Assembly (NCBI RefSeq): GCF_018129685.1
Contig: NZ_JAFCLG010000006.1
Location: forward strand, 62,001-126,000
DNA from: Bradyrhizobium manausense
Lineage (GTDB): Bacteria; Pseudomonadota; Alphaproteobacteria; Rhizobiales; Xanthobacteraceae
Length of the DNA: 64,000 nt
Direction of reading: 5' to 3'
A program made the position numbers and the translations under genes. A model generated the notes under the pieces. It was given only the letters and a program-made list of their open reading frames with translations. It made no database searches and was not told the origin of the DNA. Positions 28,614 through 40,271 of the stretch are shown piece after piece. How positions within the stretch are numbered: the stretch's first letter is position 1; the number at the start of each line of letters is the position of its first letter.

Positions 28614-29275
28614 GATACGGCCTCCCTGAACAATGCAGACTGGTGGATCAGCGCGCCGTAACGCGGATGAATGACATCGAGAGTGAAGCGGAACGCGCCC
28701 TCGCCGAGATCCGAGTGTGTCACGGTGAGATCGCCCGGCGTGAGCCATTGCGGCAGCGGGATCCAGAAGCTTCCCAGCTGCAGGCCGTAACCGGCACTGC
28801 GAAACGTCAGCGTCTCGCCTTCGACCGCAATGCGGAGCGCCATGGAGACGCCGAAGCCGACATATTCCTCCAGACCGGTCGGGCCGGCGAAACGTTTGGC
28901 CGAATGGATCACCTGCGGAAAGCCGCGCTTGCGCGCGCAGATCCGGGTCCAGGTCTGTCCGCCGGTGGCACCATCCTCGGTGACCGTGACGATCATCGGC
29001 ACGCCGGTGTCGCGCCCGATTGGCAGCGGCCCGCCGATCAGCCGTGCGGCCTGCGCGAACCACCAGCCGATCTCGCTGAACGAGACCTCGTCGACCACGC
29101 CGACATAGACGACGCTGTCGCCGTCAGCGACGCGCTTGGAGAAGCGCCGCCAGGTCGCCAGCGGCAGGCGGCCCCAATCCTCGTCCGACAACAGCGAACG
29201 GAAGCGGCGGTCGTCGAGCAGCTTGATGTGAGCGGAGGCTGGAGCGTTGGAGCCTGGTAATCTTGCCGACGTCAT
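28610..29275 (-). CDS. DUF4166 domain-containing protein
   Basis: A 221-residue soluble protein beginning MTSARLPGSNAPASAHIKLL. The DUF4166 region covers about 45-215, with IGWWFAQAARLIGGPLP and VIHPRYGALIHQSALF as clear blocks. In other genomes this domain is often fused or adjacent to TIGR01777/saccharopine-reductase-like proteins, which matches the neighbour. The ATG at 29273-29275 has AGGAGG six bases upstream. Gap to the regulator gene is 16 bases; the stop overlaps the next start. Confidence 0.84.
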   Translation of the reverse strand: MTSARLPGSNAPASAHIKLLDDRRFRSLLSDEDWGRLPLATWRRFSKRVADGDSVVYVGVVDEVSFSEIGWWFAQAARLIGGPLPIGRDTGVPMIVTVTEDGATGGQTWTRICARKRGFPQVIHSAKRFAGPTGLEEYVGFGVSMALRIAVEGETLTFRSAGYGLQLGSFWIPLPQWLTPGDLTVTHSDLGEGAFRFTLDVIHPRYGALIHQSALFREAVS

Positions 29276-29291
29276 CGCAACCTCCTCAACT

Positions 29292-29849
29292 CTACTTGGC
29301 CTTGCCCAGCGGCAGCAAATTCGCGATTTTCTCGCCAAGCCGCATCAAGGCGACCACACGCGGCCGCGGCACTTTCAGCATCTGCATGAACCAGTGATCG
29401 GCGAGCTCGGTGAAGGCGAGCATCTCCTTCAACCGTTTGCTCGCGACCGGATTGATGGTGGGATCGTCGGCGGCGTCGGTGACGCAGGCCCTGAGCGCCG
29501 TGATCGCCGGATCGAGCTCGCGCTCCTTGCGCCGCGCCGCGATGCGGGCCGCGACCTCCCAGATGTCGGTCTCGGCCTCGAAGTGATCGCGGCGGTCGCC
29601 GAGGATCGGCACCCGCCGGATCAGGTTCCAGGCGAGCAGTTCCTTCAGCGAGTTGGAGACGTTGGAGCGGGCCATGCCGAGCGTGTCGGCGATGTCCTCC
29701 GCCGTCATCGGCGCCTCCGCGAGATAGAGCAATCCGTGGATCTGACTGACCGAGCGGTTGACGCCCCACTGATCGCCCATGTCGCCCCAATGCAGAACGA
29801 AGCGCTCAACGGCGGCGGGGAGTTTCTTCTTTCCGGTTAATTCTGTCAT
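29292..29849 (-). CDS. GbsR/MarR-family transcriptional regulator
   Basis: A 185-residue winged-HTH regulator, the first gene of a four-gene operon. The GbsR-like N-terminus (VERFVLHWGDMGDQWGVNRS) precedes an HTH (MTAEDIADTLGMARSNVSNS) and the wing (RRVPILGDRRDHFEAETD). GbsR in Bacillus senses choline; the ligand here is unknown. The ATG at 29847-29849 lies inside a palindrome that may be an autoregulatory operator. Confidence 0.9.
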   Translation of the reverse strand: MTELTGKKKLPAAVERFVLHWGDMGDQWGVNRSVSQIHGLLYLAEAPMTAEDIADTLGMARSNVSNSLKELLAWNLIRRVPILGDRRDHFEAETDIWEVAARIAARRKERELDPAITALRACVTDAADDPTINPVASKRLKEMLAFTELADHWFMQMLKVPRPRVVALMRLGEKIANLLPLGKAK

Positions 29850-29856
29850 AACAGAA
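29841..29856. promoter_or_regulatory. TTCTGT-N4-ACAGAA palindrome over the regulator start codon
   Basis: A perfect 6+6 inverted repeat with a 4-base spacer that contains the complement of the ATG. Binding by the encoded regulator would block its own operon. This is inferred from position only. Confidence 0.4.
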
Positions 29857-30001
29857 ATATCTGACAATTGCGGTTGCATGTCAAGGACCCCAACCCGCCT
29901 TGCGTCATGCATACCGTTCGCAATATTTGCCTAAAAACGTCCCAGAGACTCGGAACCAAACGCCTTGACGAGCGTTTGCTCCGGTCGAGGCGGGGTCCGG
30001 A

Positions 30002-31522
30002 ATGGTGAAAAAGTTCAGTCAACAGAGAGACTTGTTCGAAAGCGAACGGAGTTTCCGGCTGTTGGTTGAGGGCGTCGCTGATTACGCGCTCTACATGCTC
30101 GATCCCAACGGCATCATCACCAGCTGGAACATCGGCGGCGCGCGGATCAAGGGCTATTCGCCCGAGGAGATCCTCGGCCAGCATTTCTCGCGCTTCTATA
30201 CCGAGACCGACCGGGCCAACGGCAAGCCTGCCCGGGCGCTCGGCATCGCGCGCGACCAGGGCCGCTACGAGGAGGAAGGCTGGCGCGTCCGCAAGGACGG
30301 CACCTTCTTCTGGGCGAGCGTCGTGATCGACCCGATCTACGAGGACGGCGTTCTCGTCGGCTTTGCCAAGATCACCCGCGACATCACGGAGCGGCGCAAC
30401 ACGCAAATCAAGCTCGAAGCGATGCAGACGCAGCTCGCGGAGTCGCAAAAATTCGACGCGCTCGGCCAGCTCACCGGCGGTGTCGCGCACGATTTCAACA
30501 ATTTGCTGATGATCATCAGCGGCAGCCTTCATATCCTCAAGAAGGGCGACGTAGACGATCCCAAGTTTCAACGCGCGATCTCGGCGATCGAAACCGCCGC
30601 CAAGCGCGGCGCTGCGCTGACAGGCCAGCTCTTGAGCTTCGCGCGGCGGCAGAGCGTCAATCCGCAGGCGATCCGTTTCGGCGACCGCATCGCGGCGATC
30701 CGCGAGGTGCTTGACGCCGGCGTCGGCAGCTCCGTTCACCTTGCCTTCGACATCGCGCGCGACGTCTGGCCGATCAAGGCCGACGTCTCTGAGCTCGAGA
30801 CCGGGCTGCTCAACCTCGTCATCAACGCCCGCGATGCCATGCCCGACGGCGGCACCGTGACGATCGGTGCGCACAATATCGTCCTGGACGATCCGCTCCA
30901 TAGCGGCGAATTCGTCGCCATTACTGTCGCCGATACCGGGCTCGGCATTCCGTCAGACGTCGTCGACAAGATTTTCGAGCCGTTCTTCACGACGAAGCCG
31001 ATCGGAAAAGGCACCGGTCTCGGCCTGTCACAGGTGCACGGCTTTGCCCATCAGGCCGGCGGTACGGTCAAGGTCGCGAGCGAACTCGGCAAGGGCACGA
31101 CCTTCACCATCCTGCTGCCGCGCGAAACCGCGAGCATGCCGAGCGAAGCGCCCAAGACGACGCTCGCGCGCGGCAGCGGCACGGTGCTGCTGGTCGAAGA
31201 CAATCCTGACGTCGCCATCGTCAGCACCGGGTTGCTGGAGCAGCTCGGCTACCACGTGCGCCGGGTTGCGGATGCCGAGTCCGCGCTGCGCGAGCTCGAG
31301 CACAACGGCGTCGACTTCGTCTTCTCCGACGTCGTCATGCCCGGCAAGATGGACGGGCTCGACCTCGCCCATCGCCTGCGCCAGATCCGCCCCGACCTGC
31401 CGATCCTGCTCGCCAGCGGCTATAGCGAAGCCGCCGCCGGCGTGCGCGGCGATTTCCCGATCCTGCGCAAGCCGTACGAAATCCACGAGCTGAGCGAAGC
31501 GATTTCGAAACTGCCGCGGTGA
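30002..31522 (+). CDS. PAS-containing hybrid sensor histidine kinase
   Basis: A 506-residue soluble sensor kinase without membrane helices. A PAS/PAC domain covers about 15-135. The dimerisation/phosphoacceptor helix has His163 in [11 protein letters not shown]. The ATP-binding domain shows [21 protein letters not shown] and [10 protein letters not shown]-terminal receiver domain (about 393-506) has acidic VEDN and the phospho-acceptor Asp443 in FSDVVMPG. It therefore probably feeds a phosphorelay, but no response regulator is adjacent. It is convergent with the cytochrome operon. Confidence 0.93.
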
Positions 31523-31552
31523 ACATCAGGCGGCGAGCTGACTGCGCGAGGC

Positions 31553-32155
31553 CTATCTAACGAAGCTTAGATAAGACGCCAGCGCCTCGACTTCGGCCGG
31601 ACCCAACGAGCGGGCGACGATCGGCATCGGCGTTCCTACTCCCGAGTGGTAACCTTGGCCCCACTGCTCCAGCCGGGTCTTCAGGTAGACGTAAGCCAGT
31701 CCGCCGAGGCGGGGAATGTCCCGCACACCCTCGGCGTTCGGACCATGGCATGCATAGCAGGACGCGACGTTCGCTTCCGGAATACCTTCGAGGTAAATCG
31801 TTCTGCCCCGTGCGGCGAGGCCCCTGTCGCCGTCATCCGCGGGCTTTGCCGGAATGGATGCGAAATAGGCAGCGAGGTCGCGCGCGTCCTGCGGCGCAAG
31901 CGCTGCTACCGCGCCCCACATGTACTGCTTCGAAAACGGGTTGTCGCGCGTGTGTTCGCGGAAGCTCCTGATCTGACTTTCGATGTATTGCGAACGCTGA
32001 CCAGCGAGCCGCGGCGCAACCGTGTATCCCTGTCCTCCGGTGCCGTGACACCAGGTGCAATTGCGGACCCGGGAGTCGCCTCCGTCCCATGCCAGCGCCG
32101 GTGCGATCGAGCCCGCGATGGCGAGAACCACGAGTTTCCAACCGATGCCCTTCAT
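31553..32155 (-). CDS. periplasmic diheme cytochrome c (c4-like), last gene of the cytochrome-porin operon
   Basis: A 200-residue exported cytochrome. The signal peptide (MKGIGWKLVVLAIAGSIAPA) is followed by two c-type heme sites, CTWCHG and CYACHG, each with a downstream Met candidate ligand (QYMWG and GTPMPI). The two-domain, about 20-kDa layout is that of cytochrome c4. An in-frame ATG at 32216-32218 overlaps the TGA of the upstream gene, but starting there would put 21 residues before the signal peptide, so 32155 is preferred. It would shuttle electrons in the periplasm. Confidence 0.87.
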   Translation of the reverse strand: MKGIGWKLVVLAIAGSIAPALAWDGGDSRVRNCTWCHGTGGQGYTVAPRLAGQRSQYIESQIRSFREHTRDNPFSKQYMWGAVAALAPQDARDLAAYFASIPAKPADDGDRGLAARGRTIYLEGIPEANVASCYACHGPNAEGVRDIPRLGGLAYVYLKTRLEQWGQGYHSGVGTPMPIVARSLGPAEVEALASYLSFVR

Positions 32156-32214
32156 GATCCCGCGCTGTCGCGCCCCATGTTTGCGGCCGCCGCAGATTTG
32201 AAACGGCGTTACCG

Positions 32215-32892
32215 TCATTGCAGATAACCGACATAGGCTGCGACCGCCTCGACCTGGGATCGCGAGAGGTTGTGCGCCGTCGGCGCCATGATCGCCGAGG
32301 TATCGACCGCCGAACCCTGGCCTCGCACTTTCGCCCAGCCCCCGAGCTGGCCGACCGTATAATCGTAAAGCTGACCCGCAAGGCGCGGGATTTCATTCTG
32401 GCCCCTGCCGTCGGTGCCGTGACAGGCCGAGCACGCCGGCACGTTGGCCTCCGGAATCCCTTCCTCGTAAATGCGCTTGCCGACCGCCAGAGAGCCGCGC
32501 GGCGCTCCTCCGATCGGTTTCGGATCGAGACTCTTGAAATGGGCAGCCAGGGCAGACACCATGGACGGGCTCAGCACGTGAGCGACGTTGGCCATGATCG
32601 GATTGGTTCGCCTGCGCTCGATGAACGCGCGCAACTGGTTCTCCAGATATTGCGGCTGCTGCCCGGCCAGCCGTGGCATCGGAAAATATCCGCGATAGCC
32701 CTGGCCCGACAGCCCATGGCAGGTCTTGCAATATTCGAGCTTGGCCTCGAGGCTTCCTCGGGAGGCGACGCCGCCGTCCTCGGCATGACACGCAACGGAG
32801 AAGGCCAGCACGAGCATCAATGCCTGCAAGGCCCGGCCCAGGCCGGCCGTGCTCCGCAGCAAGATGCGCCTTCGTACCGGAGAGCGGAACAT
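32215..32892 (-). CDS. periplasmic diheme cytochrome c (c4-like)
   Basis: A 225-residue exported diheme cytochrome. A basic N-terminus and hydrophobic segment (ALQALMLVLAFSVACHA) form the signal peptide. Heme motifs are CKTCHG and CSACHG; Met candidates lie in NPIMANVAHVL and SAIMAPTAHNL. It is strongly similar along its whole length to the divergent cytochrome at 35417 (shared FPMPRLAGQQP and FIERRRTNP), so they are paralogues. The ATG at 32890-32892 overlaps the TAA of the preceding porin-like gene (TAATG), which suggests coupled translation. Confidence 0.9.
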   Translation of the reverse strand: MFRSPVRRRILLRSTAGLGRALQALMLVLAFSVACHAEDGGVASRGSLEAKLEYCKTCHGLSGQGYRGYFPMPRLAGQQPQYLENQLRAFIERRRTNPIMANVAHVLSPSMVSALAAHFKSLDPKPIGGAPRGSLAVGKRIYEEGIPEANVPACSACHGTDGRGQNEIPRLAGQLYDYTVGQLGGWAKVRGQGSAVDTSAIMAPTAHNLSRSQVEAVAAYVGYLQ

Positions 32893-33662
32893 TACCAGCC
32901 AGCTCCCCACATGTGGAAGTTCAATCCGACCTTCACGACCTGGACGGTCTGGCTGACGCTCACCAAGCCCTGGGTTCCCGTGAGCGGATCAAACATATTC
33001 AGGTTGCCGCGGCCGAACCCGTAATAGTCGTATTCAAAGCTTGCCGACCAGTGACGCGCAAAGGCCCAGTCCACGCCGGCGCCGACCGTCCAGCCGATCC
33101 GATTGTCGAGGCCGCGAAAGTCAAACGGCACACCACCGATTGAGCCACTGACCTCGTATTTGTCGCCAGCCATTGCGACGCCGCCCTTTCCGTAAAGCAG
33201 CACGTTGTCGAAGGCATAACCGACGCGCCCCGTGACGCTGGTCAGAAAATCCGTATTCGCCTGCACCAACGCCGTATCGGGAACGCTGACCGGCAGTCCA
33301 ACGGTCTTGTTGGCCTTCATGGTCGAGCCTGACGCGCTGCCTTCGATTCCGATCACGAATGCGGAGGAAGCGAACTGGTAGTCGCAGCCGATCTGGCCGC
33401 CGATAACAGCACCGCTCGGCCCTGGGTTGACGGTCGTTACCCCGACCGTCCCACCCGGCCCCGCGTTATCCTGCACCAGTTGCACTGGGTCGGTCATGTT
33501 CTTGGTGGCGAAGCCGCCGCCAAGATGCATACCACCGTAGCAGCTGGTCCAGTTGAAGCGCTCCGCGAACGGCGTTGGCGCGACCGCCAGATCGGCAGCA
33601 TGCGCCGGTCCAATCACGCTCAGTGCGAGCGCTGCGACTTGTACGGCAATCGATTTTCTCAT
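32892..33662 (-). CDS. outer-membrane beta-barrel protein (Omp25/OmpA-like small porin family)
   Basis: A 256-residue exported protein with signal peptide ending PAHA|ADLAV. The rest shows alternating-residue beta strands with aromatic girdles (VTGRVGYAFDNVLLYGKGG, WSASFEYDYYGFGRG) and ends VGLNFHMWGAGW with a C-terminal Trp, as for Bam-inserted barrels. The usual rhizobial NWTGFYVG start is NWTSCYGGMH here, adding a Cys that could pair with the one in GGQIGCDYQF. It lies between the cytochrome-porin gene (25-base gap) and a diheme cytochrome. Confidence 0.87.
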   Translation of the reverse strand: MRKSIAVQVAALALSVIGPAHAADLAVAPTPFAERFNWTSCYGGMHLGGGFATKNMTDPVQLVQDNAGPGGTVGVTTVNPGPSGAVIGGQIGCDYQFASSAFVIGIEGSASGSTMKANKTVGLPVSVPDTALVQANTDFLTSVTGRVGYAFDNVLLYGKGGVAMAGDKYEVSGSIGGVPFDFRGLDNRIGWTVGAGVDWAFARHWSASFEYDYYGFGRGNLNMFDPLTGTQGLVSVSQTVQVVKVGLNFHMWGAGW

Positions 33663-33687
33663 GCGACGATCTCCTGAGCAGCCCGGC

Positions 33688-35223
33688 CTACATTGCGAAC
33701 CAGGCGTGGAGGAATAGGGTGTTGTTGTCGTGGGCGGCGACCGAGGTACCGTTGAACTTGTTGTAATAGGTGTATTGCAGGCCGATGCGGGCGTTGAACC
33801 ACGGCCAGCCGATCATCTTGCTCGCCCCGAAGGGGATGTAGGCGATCTCGGCCTGCCAGCCGTCACTGTTGGGGGTCATGGCCAGTCCGCTGAGCGGGTC
33901 GGTGCCGTAAAGATTCGCGTCGGAAGTGCCCGAGATTTTGAAGTACTGGCCGGTGAGAACGACGCGGTTGTCGGCCCCCATCGCCACGGAGGCCTGCAGC
34001 TTCATGCTGTTGACCACATTGGTCGGATTGGCGGCGGCGAGGCTCGCAAAGCTGGAGTCGAGCCGCTGATATTCGCGAATGTAGCTGCCGCGCAATGTCA
34101 GCCAGAAATCGTCACCTTGATATTGGTATTGCGTGTCGAAGCCAATGTCGGTGAACCTGTCCGACAAGGGATCAACCGCGGTTGTCCAGGTGCCGAAGGC
34201 GGTGTTGAGCCATGGATGGAGCTCGGAATACATGCCGAAGGTTCCGATCATCCATGTATTTCGGCCCCAGTGCGGCTCAAACGCCACGCGCCAATATGGC
34301 GCGACGCCGCCGAGTTGTCCGACGCCGAACGGATCCGTGCCGAGCGCATTCTGCTGGCTGAAGGAGAGCATCTTGTAGCCGGTCACTTCGAGATACAGCA
34401 GATCGTTGATCATCGCGTATGCGCCAACGCCGCCGACATGCGCGGCGAGCGCACCCTCGACAACGGTTTTGGTGGCGGGCGTCGACGCCAGGTTCGAAGC
34501 CGCATAGGGGAATCCCCATGCCGGCGTGGTGTTCCACAGATCCTGCACGGTCGGATTGTTGTTGGCGGTGATGCCGTAGACGACGTCGAGAGGTCCGACC
34601 ATCGCGGTCCCCGCAAAGCGCACGTCGGTGTTGTCCCACGTCCAGGTGTGTCCGAAGGGGTCGCCAAATCCTCCGGCCGGTACCGCGTTGTAAGTGACTT
34701 GCGCGAACGCGCCGATGTTGCTCGTGATCGCGCCGCCCCAGAAGATGCTGAACGGCGACATGACGGTGTTGTTGTTCGGGGCATAGGGATCTGTCGGCGC
34801 AGGCAGGTCCGCCTGTGTGTGGGTGAAGCCGACGACCGCCATCATCGAGATCGGCGGGACCCATTCCTTGCTATCGGCATCGGCCCGAGATTGCGGCGCC
34901 ACCGCCTTCGCGTAGCCGCGCAGCTTGTCGTACTCGGCGCGCACGTCCATCGCGTCGTTGGACGAAAACGGCGTCGTGCGGAATTGGCCACCGCCAGCAG
35001 TATATCCGAGCAACTTGAAGCGACGGCCGTAAGGCGTGAGCGCGGGAAAGTCGGTATGGCATGTGCCGCACGGTTGCCCGGTTTGGCGCGCGAAACTCGG
35101 CAAGGCCTGCGCAGGCGACGCAAAAACGATCGTCAGCCAAAAAGCCGAGAACAGGATTGCGCCAACTGCGACCAGCTTCCAGCTTCCTAGCAAGCCAAGA
35201 AAACGACCGCGGTCAGCTCGCAT
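33688..35223 (-). CDS. fused monoheme cytochrome c-porin, Cyc2-like
   Basis: A 511-residue exported protein, first gene of a four-gene operon. A long signal peptide ends near ASPAQA (residue 40). The mature protein opens SFARQTGQPCGTCHTDFPAL with one c-heme site CGTCH (52-56), then TPYGRRFKLLGY. About 430 residues of alternating beta pattern follow (FWLTLRGSYIREYQ, ARIGLQYTYYNKFNG) to FLHAWFAM. One N-terminal heme plus an outer-membrane barrel in one chain is the architecture of Cyc2, the outer-membrane iron oxidase of Fe(II)-oxidising bacteria, and the SFARQTG..C..CHT.FP block resembles Cyc2 and related proteins. Function as an iron oxidase is not shown; homologues occur outside known iron oxidisers. 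Confidence 0.8.
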   Translation of the reverse strand: MRADRGRFLGLLGSWKLVAVGAILFSAFWLTIVFASPAQALPSFARQTGQPCGTCHTDFPALTPYGRRFKLLGYTAGGGQFRTTPFSSNDAMDVRAEYDKLRGYAKAVAPQSRADADSKEWVPPISMMAVVGFTHTQADLPAPTDPYAPNNNTVMSPFSIFWGGAITSNIGAFAQVTYNAVPAGGFGDPFGHTWTWDNTDVRFAGTAMVGPLDVVYGITANNNPTVQDLWNTTPAWGFPYAASNLASTPATKTVVEGALAAHVGGVGAYAMINDLLYLEVTGYKMLSFSQQNALGTDPFGVGQLGGVAPYWRVAFEPHWGRNTWMIGTFGMYSELHPWLNTAFGTWTTAVDPLSDRFTDIGFDTQYQYQGDDFWLTLRGSYIREYQRLDSSFASLAAANPTNVVNSMKLQASVAMGADNRVVLTGQYFKISGTSDANLYGTDPLSGLAMTPNSDGWQAEIAYIPFGASKMIGWPWFNARIGLQYTYYNKFNGTSVAAHDNNTLFLHAWFAM

Positions 35224-35310
35224 CGCGCCACCCCAATTTGCTCGCAGCCAGCCGTCAATACGGTGATCGCTGCCGAGGACACTGAGCTAAAACCGAACCA
35301 ATCCGCGCGA

Positions 35311-35328
35311 CTGTTCTAAAAAGAACAG
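35311..35328. promoter_or_regulatory. CTGTTCT-N4-AGAACAG palindrome in divergent cytochrome promoter
   Basis: A perfect 7+7 inverted repeat with an AAAA spacer lies in the 193-base gap between the Cyc2-like gene and the divergent diheme cytochrome (88 bases from either start codon). It is a candidate operator for joint control. The nearby Crp/Fnr-family regulator is the obvious candidate binder, though the sequence is not a standard FNR box. Confidence 0.6.
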
Positions 35329-35416
35329 CAAATTTGATTTCGAGGGTGTGAGGTGATTCAGCAACACGGATTGGGCGTAAACAAAACCAGGTTGCGCGGA
35401 TCATCGGAGGGCGATC

Positions 35417-36064
35417 ATGAAGATCAGGGAACTGGCGTCGACGCTGCTGGCAGCAATTCTGGTAGCCGGCGTCCCGGCGCCGAGCTTCGCAGAGGACAAG
35501 GGGATCGACGTCCCCGCTCGGGAGCTCAAAGCCAAGACTGACTACTGCAAGACGTGTCACGGCCTATCAGGACAGGGTTTCCGAGGATCTTTTCCGATGC
35601 CGCGGTTGGCAGGGCAGCAACCGGAATACGTGAAGAATCAACTGCAGGCCTTCATCGAGCGCAGGCGAACCAATCCCGTGATGTTCAACGTGTCGCATGT
35701 TCTGACGCCGGCGATGCTCACCGCCCTTTCGACCTATTTCAAGGATCTCAACCCGAAGCCATTGGGAGGCGCACCGAGGGACTCACTGGCTGCCGGAAAG
35801 AAGATCTATGAGGAAGGCGTTCCCGCCGCTGAGGTGCCGCCATGCGCGTCGTGCCACGGACCGGACGCCAAGGGCGCCGATGCGTTTCCGCGTCTGGCGG
35901 GCCAGCTCCACGACTACATGATCAGGAAGCTGAGCAATTGGGACAAGGAGCGCGGCCAGGACAAGGCCAACCCCGACAACTCGGCGATCATGCAGCCGAT
36001 CGCTCACAATCTCACCGAAGCGCAGATCAAAGCCGTCGCGGCCTATCTCAGTTACCTGGAATAG
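35417..36064 (+). CDS. periplasmic diheme cytochrome c (c4-like)
   Basis: A 215-residue exported diheme cytochrome. The signal peptide ends near APSFA|EDKG (about residue 25). Heme sites are CKTCH (44-48) and CASCH (143-147), with Met candidates in NPVMFNVSHVL and SAIMQPIAHNL. GGAGGG precedes the ATG. It is divergent from the Cyc2-like operon and a close paralogue of the cytochrome at 32215. In Acidithiobacillus the diheme c4 cytochrome Cyc1 is the partner of Cyc2, so this protein could be the electron acceptor; that role is inferred. Confidence 0.9.
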   Translation: MKIRELASTLLAAILVAGVPAPSFAEDKGIDVPARELKAKTDYCKTCHGLSGQGFRGSFPMPRLAGQQPEYVKNQLQAFIERRRTNPVMFNVSHVLTPAMLTALSTYFKDLNPKPLGGAPRDSLAAGKKIYEEGVPAAEVPPCASCHGPDAKGADAFPRLAGQLHDYMIRKLSNWDKERGQDKANPDNSAIMQPIAHNLTEAQIKAVAAYLSYLE

Positions 36065-36098
36065 GCTGGCCCCCTCCAGTGCATGGCCCCTACGACGG

Positions 36099-36773
36099 CT
36101 AGGCTCCCAGCACCGACATCAGAAGTGCGGCGTAGACCTGGATTCTTCGGCCATGGCCGTCGTAGCTGATGAATCCTTGCTCGCGAAACCTGTTCATGAA
36201 AGTGCTGATTCGAGATCGGGTCGTGCCGACCATCTCCGCGAGCGCTTCCTGACTGAGGTTGATCTCGTTCGGTCTTCCGTCGTCTTGTCCCGAGTCGGAG
36301 AGGACCAGCAACAGCCGAGCGAGCCGCTTTTCACTCAGGTTCAGCAACTGGTCGCCCAAGTCCTCCTCGAGCCGCGTGTTCCGCGAAAGGAGATGCGCCA
36401 TGAAGAACTTACAGAACTCTGGCTCAGAGGCGAGGGTCGCAAACATCACGTCCTTCGCCACGGTGGTGATCAAGCAATCTTCGAGCGCCACGACGGTTGC
36501 GGTCCGCAGCTTCGCCCCACCCAGGCTGGTCTCGCCGAAGAACTGGCTTGGTCCGATGATCCCGACGATGGCTTCCTTGCCGCGGTTGGAAAGCGTCGTG
36601 ACCTTGACGCTCCCCTTGCGGATGTAGCCTATGGCGTCGGCGGGCTCACCCTGGGTCCAAATCTGCCAGCCGGCTTGAAATCGCTCCAGCGTCACACCGG
36701 CGGCGGGCTTCGCGAGGAAAGCCTTGGGATCGAACGGCACCTTCACTGTTCTATCGAGCGGTGCATCGGCCAT
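36099..36773 (-). CDS. Crp/Fnr-family transcriptional regulator
   Basis: A 224-residue regulator. The cyclic-nucleotide-binding-fold sensor domain (about 25-140) includes GYIRKGSVKVTTLSNRGKEA and GPSQFFGETSLGG. The C-terminal winged HTH is NLSQEALAEMVGTTRSRIST. The N-terminal cysteine cluster of FNR/FixK-type iron-sulfur sensors is missing, so it is not a direct oxygen sensor by that mechanism. The ATG at 36771-36773 is preferred over a GTG nine bases upstream. It faces the diheme cytochrome gene and probably regulates the cluster. Confidence 0.9.
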   Translation of the reverse strand: MADAPLDRTVKVPFDPKAFLAKPAAGVTLERFQAGWQIWTQGEPADAIGYIRKGSVKVTTLSNRGKEAIVGIIGPSQFFGETSLGGAKLRTATVVALEDCLITTVAKDVMFATLASEPEFCKFFMAHLLSRNTRLEEDLGDQLLNLSEKRLARLLLVLSDSGQDDGRPNEINLSQEALAEMVGTTRSRISTFMNRFREQGFISYDGHGRRIQVYAALLMSVLGA

Positions 36774-36839
36774 GGCATGCACTTACCGATCTTGAAAGCT
36801 TGAACACAGCCATTGATAGACTGTTCGCAAGCGCAAGCG

Positions 36840-36869
36840 TTGCGGCAGATCAAGCCTGATCTGCCGCAA
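36840..36869 (-). terminator. 13-bp perfect hairpin after the acylphosphatase gene
   Basis: TTGCGGCAGATCA (36840-36852) pairs with TGATCTGCCGCAA (36857-36869) over AGCC. It lies about 30 bases past the acylphosphatase stop, before the Crp-family gene start. No U-tract follows, so it may also be an mRNA-stabilising or regulatory hairpin. Confidence 0.55.
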
Positions 36870-36900
36870 TTGCGAGGCATTCTTGATTTCAGCAGGCGCT

Positions 36901-37200
36901 CTAAACCGTCGGCAGAACCGAGAATGGTTCCCCTGCCCTGCGCAGGTTCAGCTCATCCACGCTCGCCGTCTCGCTCGTCACGCTGTCCACGCGCGACGAC
37001 GGCGGGCCGTGGCGGCACAGCGCGACCATGTCGGCGACGTGCTTCGGCGCGCCCGCGAACAGCGCTTCGACGCTGCCGTCGCGGCGGTTGCGGACCCAGC
37101 CTTCGAGACCGCTCGTCGTCGCCTGGTATTCGACCCATGCGCGATAGCCGACGCCCTGGACGCGTCCGCGGATCATGACCTGGAGGATCGCGCGGCTCAT
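36901..37200 (-). CDS. acyP: acylphosphatase
   Basis: A 99-residue enzyme that hydrolyses the carboxyl-phosphate bond of acyl phosphates. The phosphate-binding loop with catalytic Arg is [11 protein letters not shown], and the catalytic Asn is in [17 protein letters not shown]. The length is typical. The ATG (37198-37200) overlaps the TGA of the preceding PEP-mutase-family gene, so the two are co-translated. Confidence 0.94.
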
Positions 37201-38063
37201 CTCTTCAGTCCAAGAAAGTCGGCGCTGCGCGCTTTGACCTCGGCCTCGCGCGTGACGCGGCTGGTCAACTCCGCCGAGGGCAACCCCTTCAGCGCTTTCG
37301 GCGCAGTCCCTTCACGTAACGCTTTCTGCACGTCGTAGATTGCCTGCGTGGCCGCCGCGATGGGCGCATGGCCCTGGAGCGCGATGCGGACGCGCTGGCC
37401 CGCGAGGTCATCGATCGCGTTCAATTCATCAGGCACGCCGCCGAGCACGATCGGCAGATGCGTGGCACCAACAATCGCCTCGAGCTCAGCGCGCGACTTG
37501 ATTCCAGTGAAGAACAGCGCATCGACTCCGGCAGCCTCATACGCCCTGGCGCGGCGGATTGCATCCTCGATCGAGGTGATCGAGGCAGCTCCGGTGCGTC
37601 CCATGATGACGAGCGAAGGATCGCCGCGCGCATCGAGTGCCGCCTTGATCTTGCCGACGCCCTCCTCCAGCGAGATCAGCTGCGCCTTGGCCTCGCCAAA
37701 AGCGGCCGGCAGCAGCGTGTCCTCGATGGTGAGGCCGGCCGCACCTACCGTTTCCAGCTCCTGCACCGTGCGGCGAACATTGAGCGCATTGCCATAGCCG
37801 TGATCGGCATCGACCAGCACCGGGAGGCTGGCGGCACGCGACATCCGCCGCACCTGCTCGGCGAGCTCGGTGAGCGTGATCAGGGTGACGTCAGGGTCGC
37901 CGAGCACGGCGAGCGAGGCGACCGAGCCGCCAAACATGCCGAGCGGAAAGCCGAGGTCCTCGGCGATGCGGATCGAGATCGCGTCATAGACCGAGCCGGG
38001 ATGGACGCAGGCCGGCCCCGACAGGATGGAGCGCAGTTTTTCGCGGCGGGAACGAAAAGCCAT
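37197..38063 (-). CDS. PEP mutase/isocitrate lyase family protein (oxaloacetate decarboxylase-like)
   Basis: A 288-residue (beta/alpha)8 enzyme. Family features are [20 protein letters not shown], the Mg2+-binding [16 protein letters not shown], and [12 protein letters not shown]. The KKCGH-like loop of isocitrate lyase is not evident. The closest known group is the PA4872-type oxaloacetate decarboxylases, so decarboxylation of oxaloacetate to pyruvate is likely. It is the first gene of a two-gene unit with the acylphosphatase. A REP-like repeat lies upstream. Confidence 0.85.
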
Positions 38064-38089
38064 GGGAATGTCTCGCGATCACACTCTAT

Positions 38090-38231
38090 CGTCGTCCTGG
38101 CGAAAGCCAGGACCCATTACTCCAACTGTACATTGTCGCAGAAGATGATGGCTACGATCTCCGTCCACAACTGCCCCTTGGGGTAATGGGTCCTGGATCG
38201 GCTTTCGCTCCGCTCACTTGTCCAGGACGAC
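38090..38231. repeat. long REP-like inverted repeat (CGTCGTCC...GGACGAC family), copy 1
   Basis: The left arm starts CGTCGTCCTGGCGAAAGCCA at 38090 and reaches CCCATTAC at 38120. The right arm starts GTAATGGGTCC at 38183 and ends CCAGGACGAC at 38231. It fills the gap between the carboxylase gene stop (38256) and the PEP-mutase-family start (38063). It is related to the element at 44232-44354. Confidence 0.75.
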
Positions 38232-38255
38232 ATTGGGCGATAGCCGAGACCAGCC

Positions 38256-40271
<2,016 letters not shown>

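Follow-up and report, generated by a model that had tools for sequence, protein, structure and literature searches.

Within a window of 64,000 nucleotides from Bradyrhizobium manausense (assembly GCF_018129685.1, contig NZ_JAFCLG010000006.1, positions 62,001 to 126,000 of the forward strand), by which we mean the whole stretch of DNA analysed here, six genes form a compact cluster built around a heme-porin of the Cyc2 type. A small barrel protein, three diheme cytochromes (C4a, C4b and C4c) and a regulator of the Crp/Fnr family complete the cluster. The six open reading frames (ORFs) were recovered from the ORF list of the window as described in an initial annotation made from the sequence. 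The range proposed there for the locus, 31553-36773, holds the cluster but falls short at its end, cutting by 9 bases the Crp-family ORF that runs to 36782. In window coordinates, the features are:

33688..35223, minus strand: Cyc2-type heme-porin, 511 residues (ORF, motif, predicted barrel, relatives)
32892..33662, minus strand: small outer-membrane barrel of the OMP_b-brl type, 256 residues (Pfam PF13505, E 8.8e-12)
32215..32910, minus strand: C4a, diheme c4-like cytochrome with CKTCH and CSACH, 231 residues (Pfam Cytochrom_C, best PDB relative 1h1o)
31553..32218, minus strand: C4b, diheme c4-like cytochrome with CTWCH and CYACH, 221 residues (Pfam Cytochrom_C, best PDB relative 1h1o)
35417..36064, plus strand: C4c, divergent diheme c4-like cytochrome with CKTCH and CASCH, 215 residues (Pfam Cytochrom_C, best PDB relative 1h1o)
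36099..36782, minus strand: regulator of the Crp/Fnr family, 227 residues (PF00027, E 8.3e-19; PF13545, E 4.8e-14)
35311..35328, no strand: palindrome CTGTTC-N6-GAACAG, candidate operator, exact match in the divergent promoter

The heme-porin, small barrel, C4a and C4b genes follow one another with a 25-bp gap, a 19-bp overlap and a 4-bp overlap, a spacing that fits a single transcript. C4c is read from the opposite strand, its start codon 193 bp from that of the heme-porin, and the Crp-family gene lies behind C4c and converges with it. ORFs, Pfam matches and spacing all agree with the operon first described, in which a small barrel and two dihemes follow the heme-porin while a third diheme is divergent and adjoined by the regulator.

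The heme-porin and its partner proteins

According to PMC8406198, Cyc2 proteins carry the motif AXPXFAR[Q/K][T/Y] upstream of CXXCH, described as unique to Cyc2, followed downstream by PXL; they count at least 365 residues and form a 16-strand barrel resembling OprO and OprP. The window protein reads ALPSFARQT-GQP-CGTCH-TDF-PAL and thus matches the motif of that definition (PMC8406198) letter for letter, with one CGTCH, a PAL after TDF and 511 residues in all. The heme site stands just past the apparent signal peptide, the mature protein starting at about residue 41 as judged by eye. With 80 aligned sequences as input, AlphaFold2 predicted 16 strands at a mean predicted local distance difference test score (pLDDT) of 87.4 and a predicted template modelling score (pTM) of 0.88. 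The weakest part of the model covers residues 41-80, from the heme domain to the first strand (block mean pLDDT 51-65). The exported 511-residue protein with one CGTCH and a beta-rich domain is in this way confirmed as an ORF and predicted as a barrel, whose strand number falls within the 14-18 anticipated by the initial annotation.

A Foldseek search with the model ranked OprP first (2o4v, E 6.2e-9, TM-score 0.43 by query length, root-mean-square deviation 9.3). Sixteen strands are also reported for Cyc2, and OprP is reported as a template for Cyc2PV-1 (PMC8406198). VIA-align gave Z 21.4 to OmpE36 (297 residues, 3.6 A) and OmpC20, with many other 16-strand porins tied. Sequence profiles assigned no family to the heme-porin: the lone Pfam match was to DUF3742 and under cut-off (E 0.16), NCBIfam returned zero matches, and a search of PDB sequences found nothing significant (one row, E 0.11). 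Since the predicted 16-strand barrel joins the motif, the single heme, the PXL and the length, the protein is a Cyc2 homologue by the published definition, its fold being taken from the model. The Cyc2-like architecture proposed at the outset, for which the OprP-like fold also speaks, accordingly stands. Such a fusion of a single heme to a predicted 16-strand barrel sets the protein apart from the MtrAB, PioAB and MtoAB systems, where a multiheme cytochrome is separate from an MtrB/PioB-type barrel. Among 131 heme-bearing relatives, ORFs that include some contigs twice, 62 show the complete string, PXL included, at a fixed spacing, 29 more, a count made from a listing, show its N-terminal part only, and 40 depart from it.

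The three diheme partners have 1h1o as their best PDB relative (C4a, E 4.1e-26; C4b, E 1.3e-24; C4c, E 1.1e-28), and other c4 chains are among the top PDB matches. We take 1h1o to be the c4 of Acidithiobacillus ferrooxidans, i.e. Cyc1, the partner of Cyc2. Cyc1 is mentioned as CYC41 in PMC8406198. Each partner holds two class-I heme domains within about 190-230 residues, each domain with CXXCH and a Met column. In an alignment of 42 c4 rows chosen from the window and 16 loci, every row keeps both heme sites, and the Met columns behind them are kept in 40 and 42 rows. These two Met columns are presumably the heme ligands of c4. By sequence, all three proteins are cytochrome c4-like, as had been proposed; C4a and C4c are 60% identical and C4b stands apart (37% to C4c).

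The extra barrel protein noticed initially is likewise borne out by its PF13505 match and by a predicted structure with 8 strands (pLDDT 85.5, pTM 0.79), whose fold matches in the PDB are OmpT, OmpA, OmpW and barrels of the OprG type, at modest TM-scores.

Conservation of the locus and its regulator

The heme-porin is single copy in its own genome. When 60 genomes were searched with this one sequence, it turned up in 3 of the 36 that belong to the genus (own genome 100%, G026 94%, G034 72%) and in 0 of the 24 others. With a nine-sequence profile (A1) at E <= 1e-5, matches were obtained in 88 of the 398 genomes sampled from the phylum and in 27 of the 248 from the family; many weaker profile matches span only the heme domain and the first strands and were not counted as Cyc2. 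On plasmids, tblastn matched 9 of 72,556 records (Caballeronia 2, Acidiphilium 2, Methylocystis, Polymorphobacter, Paraburkholderia, Ideonella and one named A. ferrooxidans). In named genomes, at least 566 of at least 596 candidates were confirmed as relatives, and 80 loci were retained. The closest among the matches listed are Bradyrhizobium diazoefficiens SZCCT0138 (94%), Bradyrhizobium sp. STM 3843, STM 3809 and CCBAU 51627; next among them come Rhodopseudomonas, Methylocapsa, Rhodoblastus and metagenome-assembled genomes (MAGs) labelled Burkholderiales, Gemmatimonadota, Bacteroidetes and others. Alignment A2 comprises the window and 79 of the 80 named loci, L186 being omitted. Judged by length and place, some contigs entered from two sources (L010=L111, L011=L114, L071=L112, L075=L116, L077=L118, L080=L119, L082=L121, L084=L120, L088=L140).

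A maximum-likelihood tree of 61 picked rows, built by a quick method from an uncertain barrel alignment and supported by the Shimodaira-Hasegawa-like approximate likelihood ratio test (SH-aLRT) only, groups the window with SZCCT0138 and STM 3843 (support 100 and 96), within a clade of the genus and family. The phylogeny suggested by the initial annotation thus places the heme-porin among Bradyrhizobium and, for the rest, only parts it from six distant rows.

Altogether 9 distinct loci, in Bradyrhizobium and its close relatives, show the whole order of a divergent C4c facing heme-porin, barrel, C4a and C4b: the window, L111, L112 (STM 3843, carrying the full layout), L113, L114, L116, L118, L074 and L076. 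The same order is found in L073 with a barrel-like ORF of only 80 residues, and L115 and L117 agree with it up to their contig ends. As other genomes keep both the genes for the heme-porin and its neighbours and their order, the cluster is not due to chance. Further away, three c4-like genes stand beside the heme-porin without the small barrel in L004 (a Methylocystis plasmid), L128 (Methylocapsa), L083, L125 and L149; L130 has two within 4 kb and a third further off, and L119 and L079 have the barrel and three dihemes, all downstream. The Rhodopseudomonas loci L120 and L121 pair the heme-porin with a different barrel, and no c4 genes were found there. Of the 80 named loci, 72 extend for 700 bp or more past the heme-porin, and 26 of these 72 carry a c4-like gene downstream within 4 kb. 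On either side within that distance, such a gene occurs in 32 of 80 loci; three or more were counted in 10 of 80, and a barrel of the small-barrel type in 11 of 80, the two Rhodopseudomonas ones included. Partners were counted by BLAST to the window proteins (E <= 1e-4), so that unrelated partners are missed.

Relatives of the Crp-family regulator lie beside the cluster in L111 (77%), L112 (58%) and L113 (70%). None of its NCBIfam matches, among them the Fnr and FixK models, comes near its cut-off. The 18-bp palindrome was noticed when aligning seven divergent promoters and was tested afterwards. It is exact in the window, L111 and L112 and has one mismatch in L113, which are the four loci with a Crp-family gene beside C4c. 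At up to two mismatches it was not found in L073, L074, L076 and L116, where sequence continues past C4c and there is no such Crp gene, in L114, L117 and L118, where contigs end near C4c, or in L119, L079 and L004, which have another layout. The exact palindrome is the sole exact match in the window and one of 3 in the genome. With one mismatch, the genome holds 47 against 36 per strand for a reversed control, a slight excess; with two mismatches, the window holds 6 against 1.87 in shuffles. By itself the sequence of the palindrome carries little weight, and the case therefore rests on position and conservation. As the four related Bradyrhizobium loci are non-independent and the genome-wide count is hardly above control, the pairing of palindrome and Crp gene is a lead, not proof. 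The regulator would probably control both promoters through the palindrome that lies between them. Two other candidate sites, the exact FNR/FixK box (TTGA-N6-TCAA) and the CRP box (TGTGA-N6-TCACA), were sought in the seven divergent promoters and occur in none.

Proposed function and its alternatives

We consider it probable that the locus encodes a Cyc2-type electron-uptake conduit feeding c4 carriers, with Fe(II) as the likeliest donor. The heme-porin would span the outer membrane with its 16-strand barrel, while its single c-type heme would form a small N-terminal plug, probably facing the periplasm. A reduced donor that is small and soluble, Fe(II) being the most likely, would enter the barrel and reduce the heme. 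The electron would then pass to periplasmic diheme c4 carriers, C4a and C4b made from the heme-porin transcript and C4c from the divergent one, and from these to inner-membrane oxidases or the bc1 complex. The three c4s could serve different acceptors, after the example of A. ferrooxidans, in which Cyc1 is said to serve the oxidase and CycA1 bc1 (PMC5566968); which of them feeds which acceptor is a matter of conjecture, and the small barrel can be given a part in the conduit only by supposition.

Several observations agree with this assignment. The three Cyc2 representatives that have been studied biochemically oxidise Fe(II) (PMC8406198), and Fe(II) oxidation by Bradyrhizobium isolates has been reported (PMC3863755). 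The MtrB/PioB barrel family PF11854 gave zero matches in the own genome (a control matched 1 of 14 named genomes, none over cut-off), hence no barrel of the Pio or Mto type was found that could take the conduit role. RuBisCO and two reaction-centre genes are present in the genome, and electrons from the donor could therefore serve CO2 fixation. A link of the heme-porin to photosynthesis was sought and did not emerge: among 51 genus genomes, 4 carry a full-length heme-porin, 6 carry reaction-centre genes and 2 carry both. Reaction-centre genes thus occur in 2 of 4 heme-porin carriers versus 4 of 47 others, and the two carriers are sisters in the tree with heme-porins 94% identical. Because the two traits are not clearly together in the genus, no photosynthetic role is claimed for the conduit outside the speculative reading given below.

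Related systems have been described. A Bradyrhizobium Cyc2 clustered with a high-potential iron-sulfur protein (HiPIP) and three periplasmic cytochromes c, including homologues of Cyc1 and CycA1, is reported in PMC5566968 (2017), which attributes this cluster to the pyrite-oxidising enrichment of Percak-Dennett et al. 2017 and also lists Bradyrhizobium sp. STM 3843 among the bacteria with a Cyc2-like gene. The window locus resembles that cluster by a Cyc2 in Bradyrhizobium with three periplasmic cytochromes c and differs from it in that a motif search around the locus found no HiPIP. A HiPIP-like gene, recognised by its motif, does lie directly upstream of the heme-porin of Rhodopseudomonas pseudopalustris (L121:5493-5777, plus strand), recalling the published Cyc2-HiPIP cluster; around L072, L122 and L123 the motif search flagged none. 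Compared with the A. ferrooxidans rus operon (Cyc2, Cyc1, CoxBACD, Rus) and the c4 CycA of its pet operon (PMC10654088), the association of a heme-porin with c4-type dihemes is shared, whereas the window operon consists of four genes (heme-porin, barrel, two c4s) without rusticyanin or an oxidase such as the aa3 type of the rus system, and the locus adds a third c4 and an extra barrel. The plasmid of Methylocystis sp. MJC1 (NZ_CP107559, L004) likewise joins a heme-porin to relatives of all three c4s (56-62%) and a nearby Crp/Fnr gene; it differs in having no small barrel, its three c4s in line downstream, and a Crp protein 27% identical encoded about 2.5 kb from the last c4. Elsewhere, Cyc2 often adjoins mono- or diheme cytochromes in Acetobacteraceae (PMC10715153), and Zetaproteobacteria carry Cyc2 of Clusters 1 and 3 (PMC7029218).

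The initial annotation was right to call the genome rhizobium-like. Given this literature, its suggestion that an extra barrel protein and three c4-like partners in such a genome would be a new variant is not supported: a Bradyrhizobium Cyc2 with three cytochromes c is in print (PMC5566968) and STM 3843 has the same layout. Its interpretation is partly supported, right in kind and not new in kind. Cyc2-like genes are widespread; the kind is known and the layout with the small barrel is a local variation. What is possibly new is the conserved small barrel as a possible partner, the three orthologous c4s and the pair of Crp gene and candidate operator. Literature on Cyc2 with Bradyrhizobium, c4, diheme/beta-barrel or photosynthesis, and on Bradyrhizobium with pyrite oxidation, was found to mention neither the small barrel nor the operator, a partial coverage that does not imply absence from print.

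A number of points weigh against a conduit for Fe(II) uptake. This function, although the likeliest, is argued from the family motif, predicted folds, conserved gene order and the co-occurrence of palindrome and regulator. With 46 of the 72 loci lacking a c4-like gene within 4 kb downstream, a c4 partner is not universal at the locus. No HiPIP motif occurs in window positions 29000-38500 (91 frames). Rusticyanin gave weak matches in 52 of 398 genomes, the own genome included, and 0 over cut-off; the own genome has three below-cut-off matches to TIGR03095 and none above. OprP is outside the best 50 VIA-align rows. The family is very broad, and many of its at least 566 relatives belong to holders not recognised as iron oxidisers. 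In the tree, a long branch splits the 55 window-side rows from the six distant ones (f59, f78, f107; the chosen outgroup). These six rows are presumably Cyc2 of the iron-oxidiser type, and three of them have an odd letter make-up. The window protein, which shares with A. ferrooxidans Cyc2, Mariprofundus Cyc2PV-1 and Leptospirillum Cyt572 the motif, single CXXCH, PXL, length and predicted 16-strand OprP-like barrel, is thus probably a distant member: a long branch leads to the iron-oxidiser-like rows, whose profile match lies mostly within the first 100-150 positions. Finally, PMC8406198 warns that Cyc2 function is less certain outside Cluster 1.

Other readings were weighed as well. The same conduit could accept Mn(II), reduced humic substances, another small reductant or an electrode, which is possible if unlikely; relatives occur, among the matches listed, across records labelled with many phyla, and PMC5566968 raises non-Fe(II) extracellular electron transfer for holders not known to oxidise iron, whereas the three biochemically studied Cyc2 oxidise Fe(II) (PMC8406198). 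That electrons flow outward, the conduit discharging them under oxygen shortage onto Fe(III) or a different extracellular acceptor, appears quite improbable. Cyc2 isoforms of acidithiobacilli (Cyc2B) are cited for ferric iron reduction in PMC10715153 and an adjoining regulator of the Crp/Fnr type would fit oxygen or redox control, but its matches to Fnr and FixK models, so far under cut-off, indicate no signal, and a Pfam scan of eight locus proteins found no quinol dehydrogenase or tetraheme feeder among them. We judge it very improbable that surface oxidation of Fe(II) serves to limit toxicity and not to gain energy: the patchy accessory distribution, with a full-length gene in 4 of 51 genus genomes, would suit such a protective role, while three dedicated c4 carriers point to a respiratory link and RuBisCO is present in the genome.

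As for the small barrel, chances are even that it is a chance neighbour, one of many such barrels and without part in electron transfer. The genome holds 21 matches to barrels of the OMP_b-brl type, the small barrel included. None accompanies the Methylocystis plasmid locus, which keeps all three c4s, or L083, and L073 has merely its 80-residue ORF. The barrel beside the Rhodopseudomonas genes is just 30-31% identical, below many own-genome paralogues, and is therefore probably another gene. On the opposite side, each of the 9 complete loci has the gene in place between those for the heme-porin and C4a, and its product is 54-86% identical at the same place in the eight loci L111-L118 (46% in L119), compared with at most 43% for the other 20 matches in its own genome. 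Identity being higher at the locus than with own-genome matches, the small barrel represents an operon-specific lineage of a very common type.

Going beyond the electron-uptake conduit itself, one may speculate that in Bradyrhizobium and close relatives Cyc2 works as a multi-part device, with a dedicated 8-strand barrel partner in a structural or substrate-handling role, three c4s splitting the electrons between acceptors and a dedicated Crp switch acting on CTGTTC-N6-GAACAG, a proposal that we hold rather unlikely as a whole. If true, it would enable the window strain to use Fe(II) in a light-driven or lithotrophic way that needs no Pio system. Cyc2-like genes occur in many bacteria not known to oxidise iron, where their role as iron oxidase is debated (PMC8406198, PMC5566968). 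Bradyrhizobium is amenable to laboratory growth and manipulation, so that this compact conserved locus, to which a regulator and a candidate operator belong, lends itself to a direct test of the role of Cyc2. Should Fe(II) oxidation prove true, iron-dependent electron uptake would extend to the accessory gene sets of rhizobia.

Heme-porin variants and a neighbouring kinase

Free-standing Cyc2-like heme domains were observed in the genus and family, as proteins of 73-121 residues with an apparent signal peptide and Q-T-G/K-T-G followed by C-x-x-C-H, the barrel being absent in-frame. Of 11 heme-domain-only loci inspected, 5 have such small proteins and 6 are without any by the pattern used. The five found by pattern search are:

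L110:5993-6274, minus strand: free-standing heme protein
L058:1297-1659, plus strand: free-standing heme protein
L059:1366-1677, plus strand: free-standing heme protein
L060:1510-1728, minus strand: free-standing heme protein
L061:1492-1728, minus strand: free-standing heme protein

In L083 (6715-8327, minus strand; genome G600), the heme domain (a 125-residue ORF) and the barrel (a 477-residue ORF) lie in two overlapping frames, which may reflect a frameshift, an error of assembly or a gene split in two. In a MAG that is labelled Gemmatimonadetes, one contig (L145:3-3464, plus strand) bears two heme-porin ORFs and a c4-like ORF overlapping both. Beside the cluster in the window, a PAS histidine kinase with a fused receiver domain is encoded at 30002-31522 on the plus strand and ends 30 bp from the 3' end of the operon, with which it converges.

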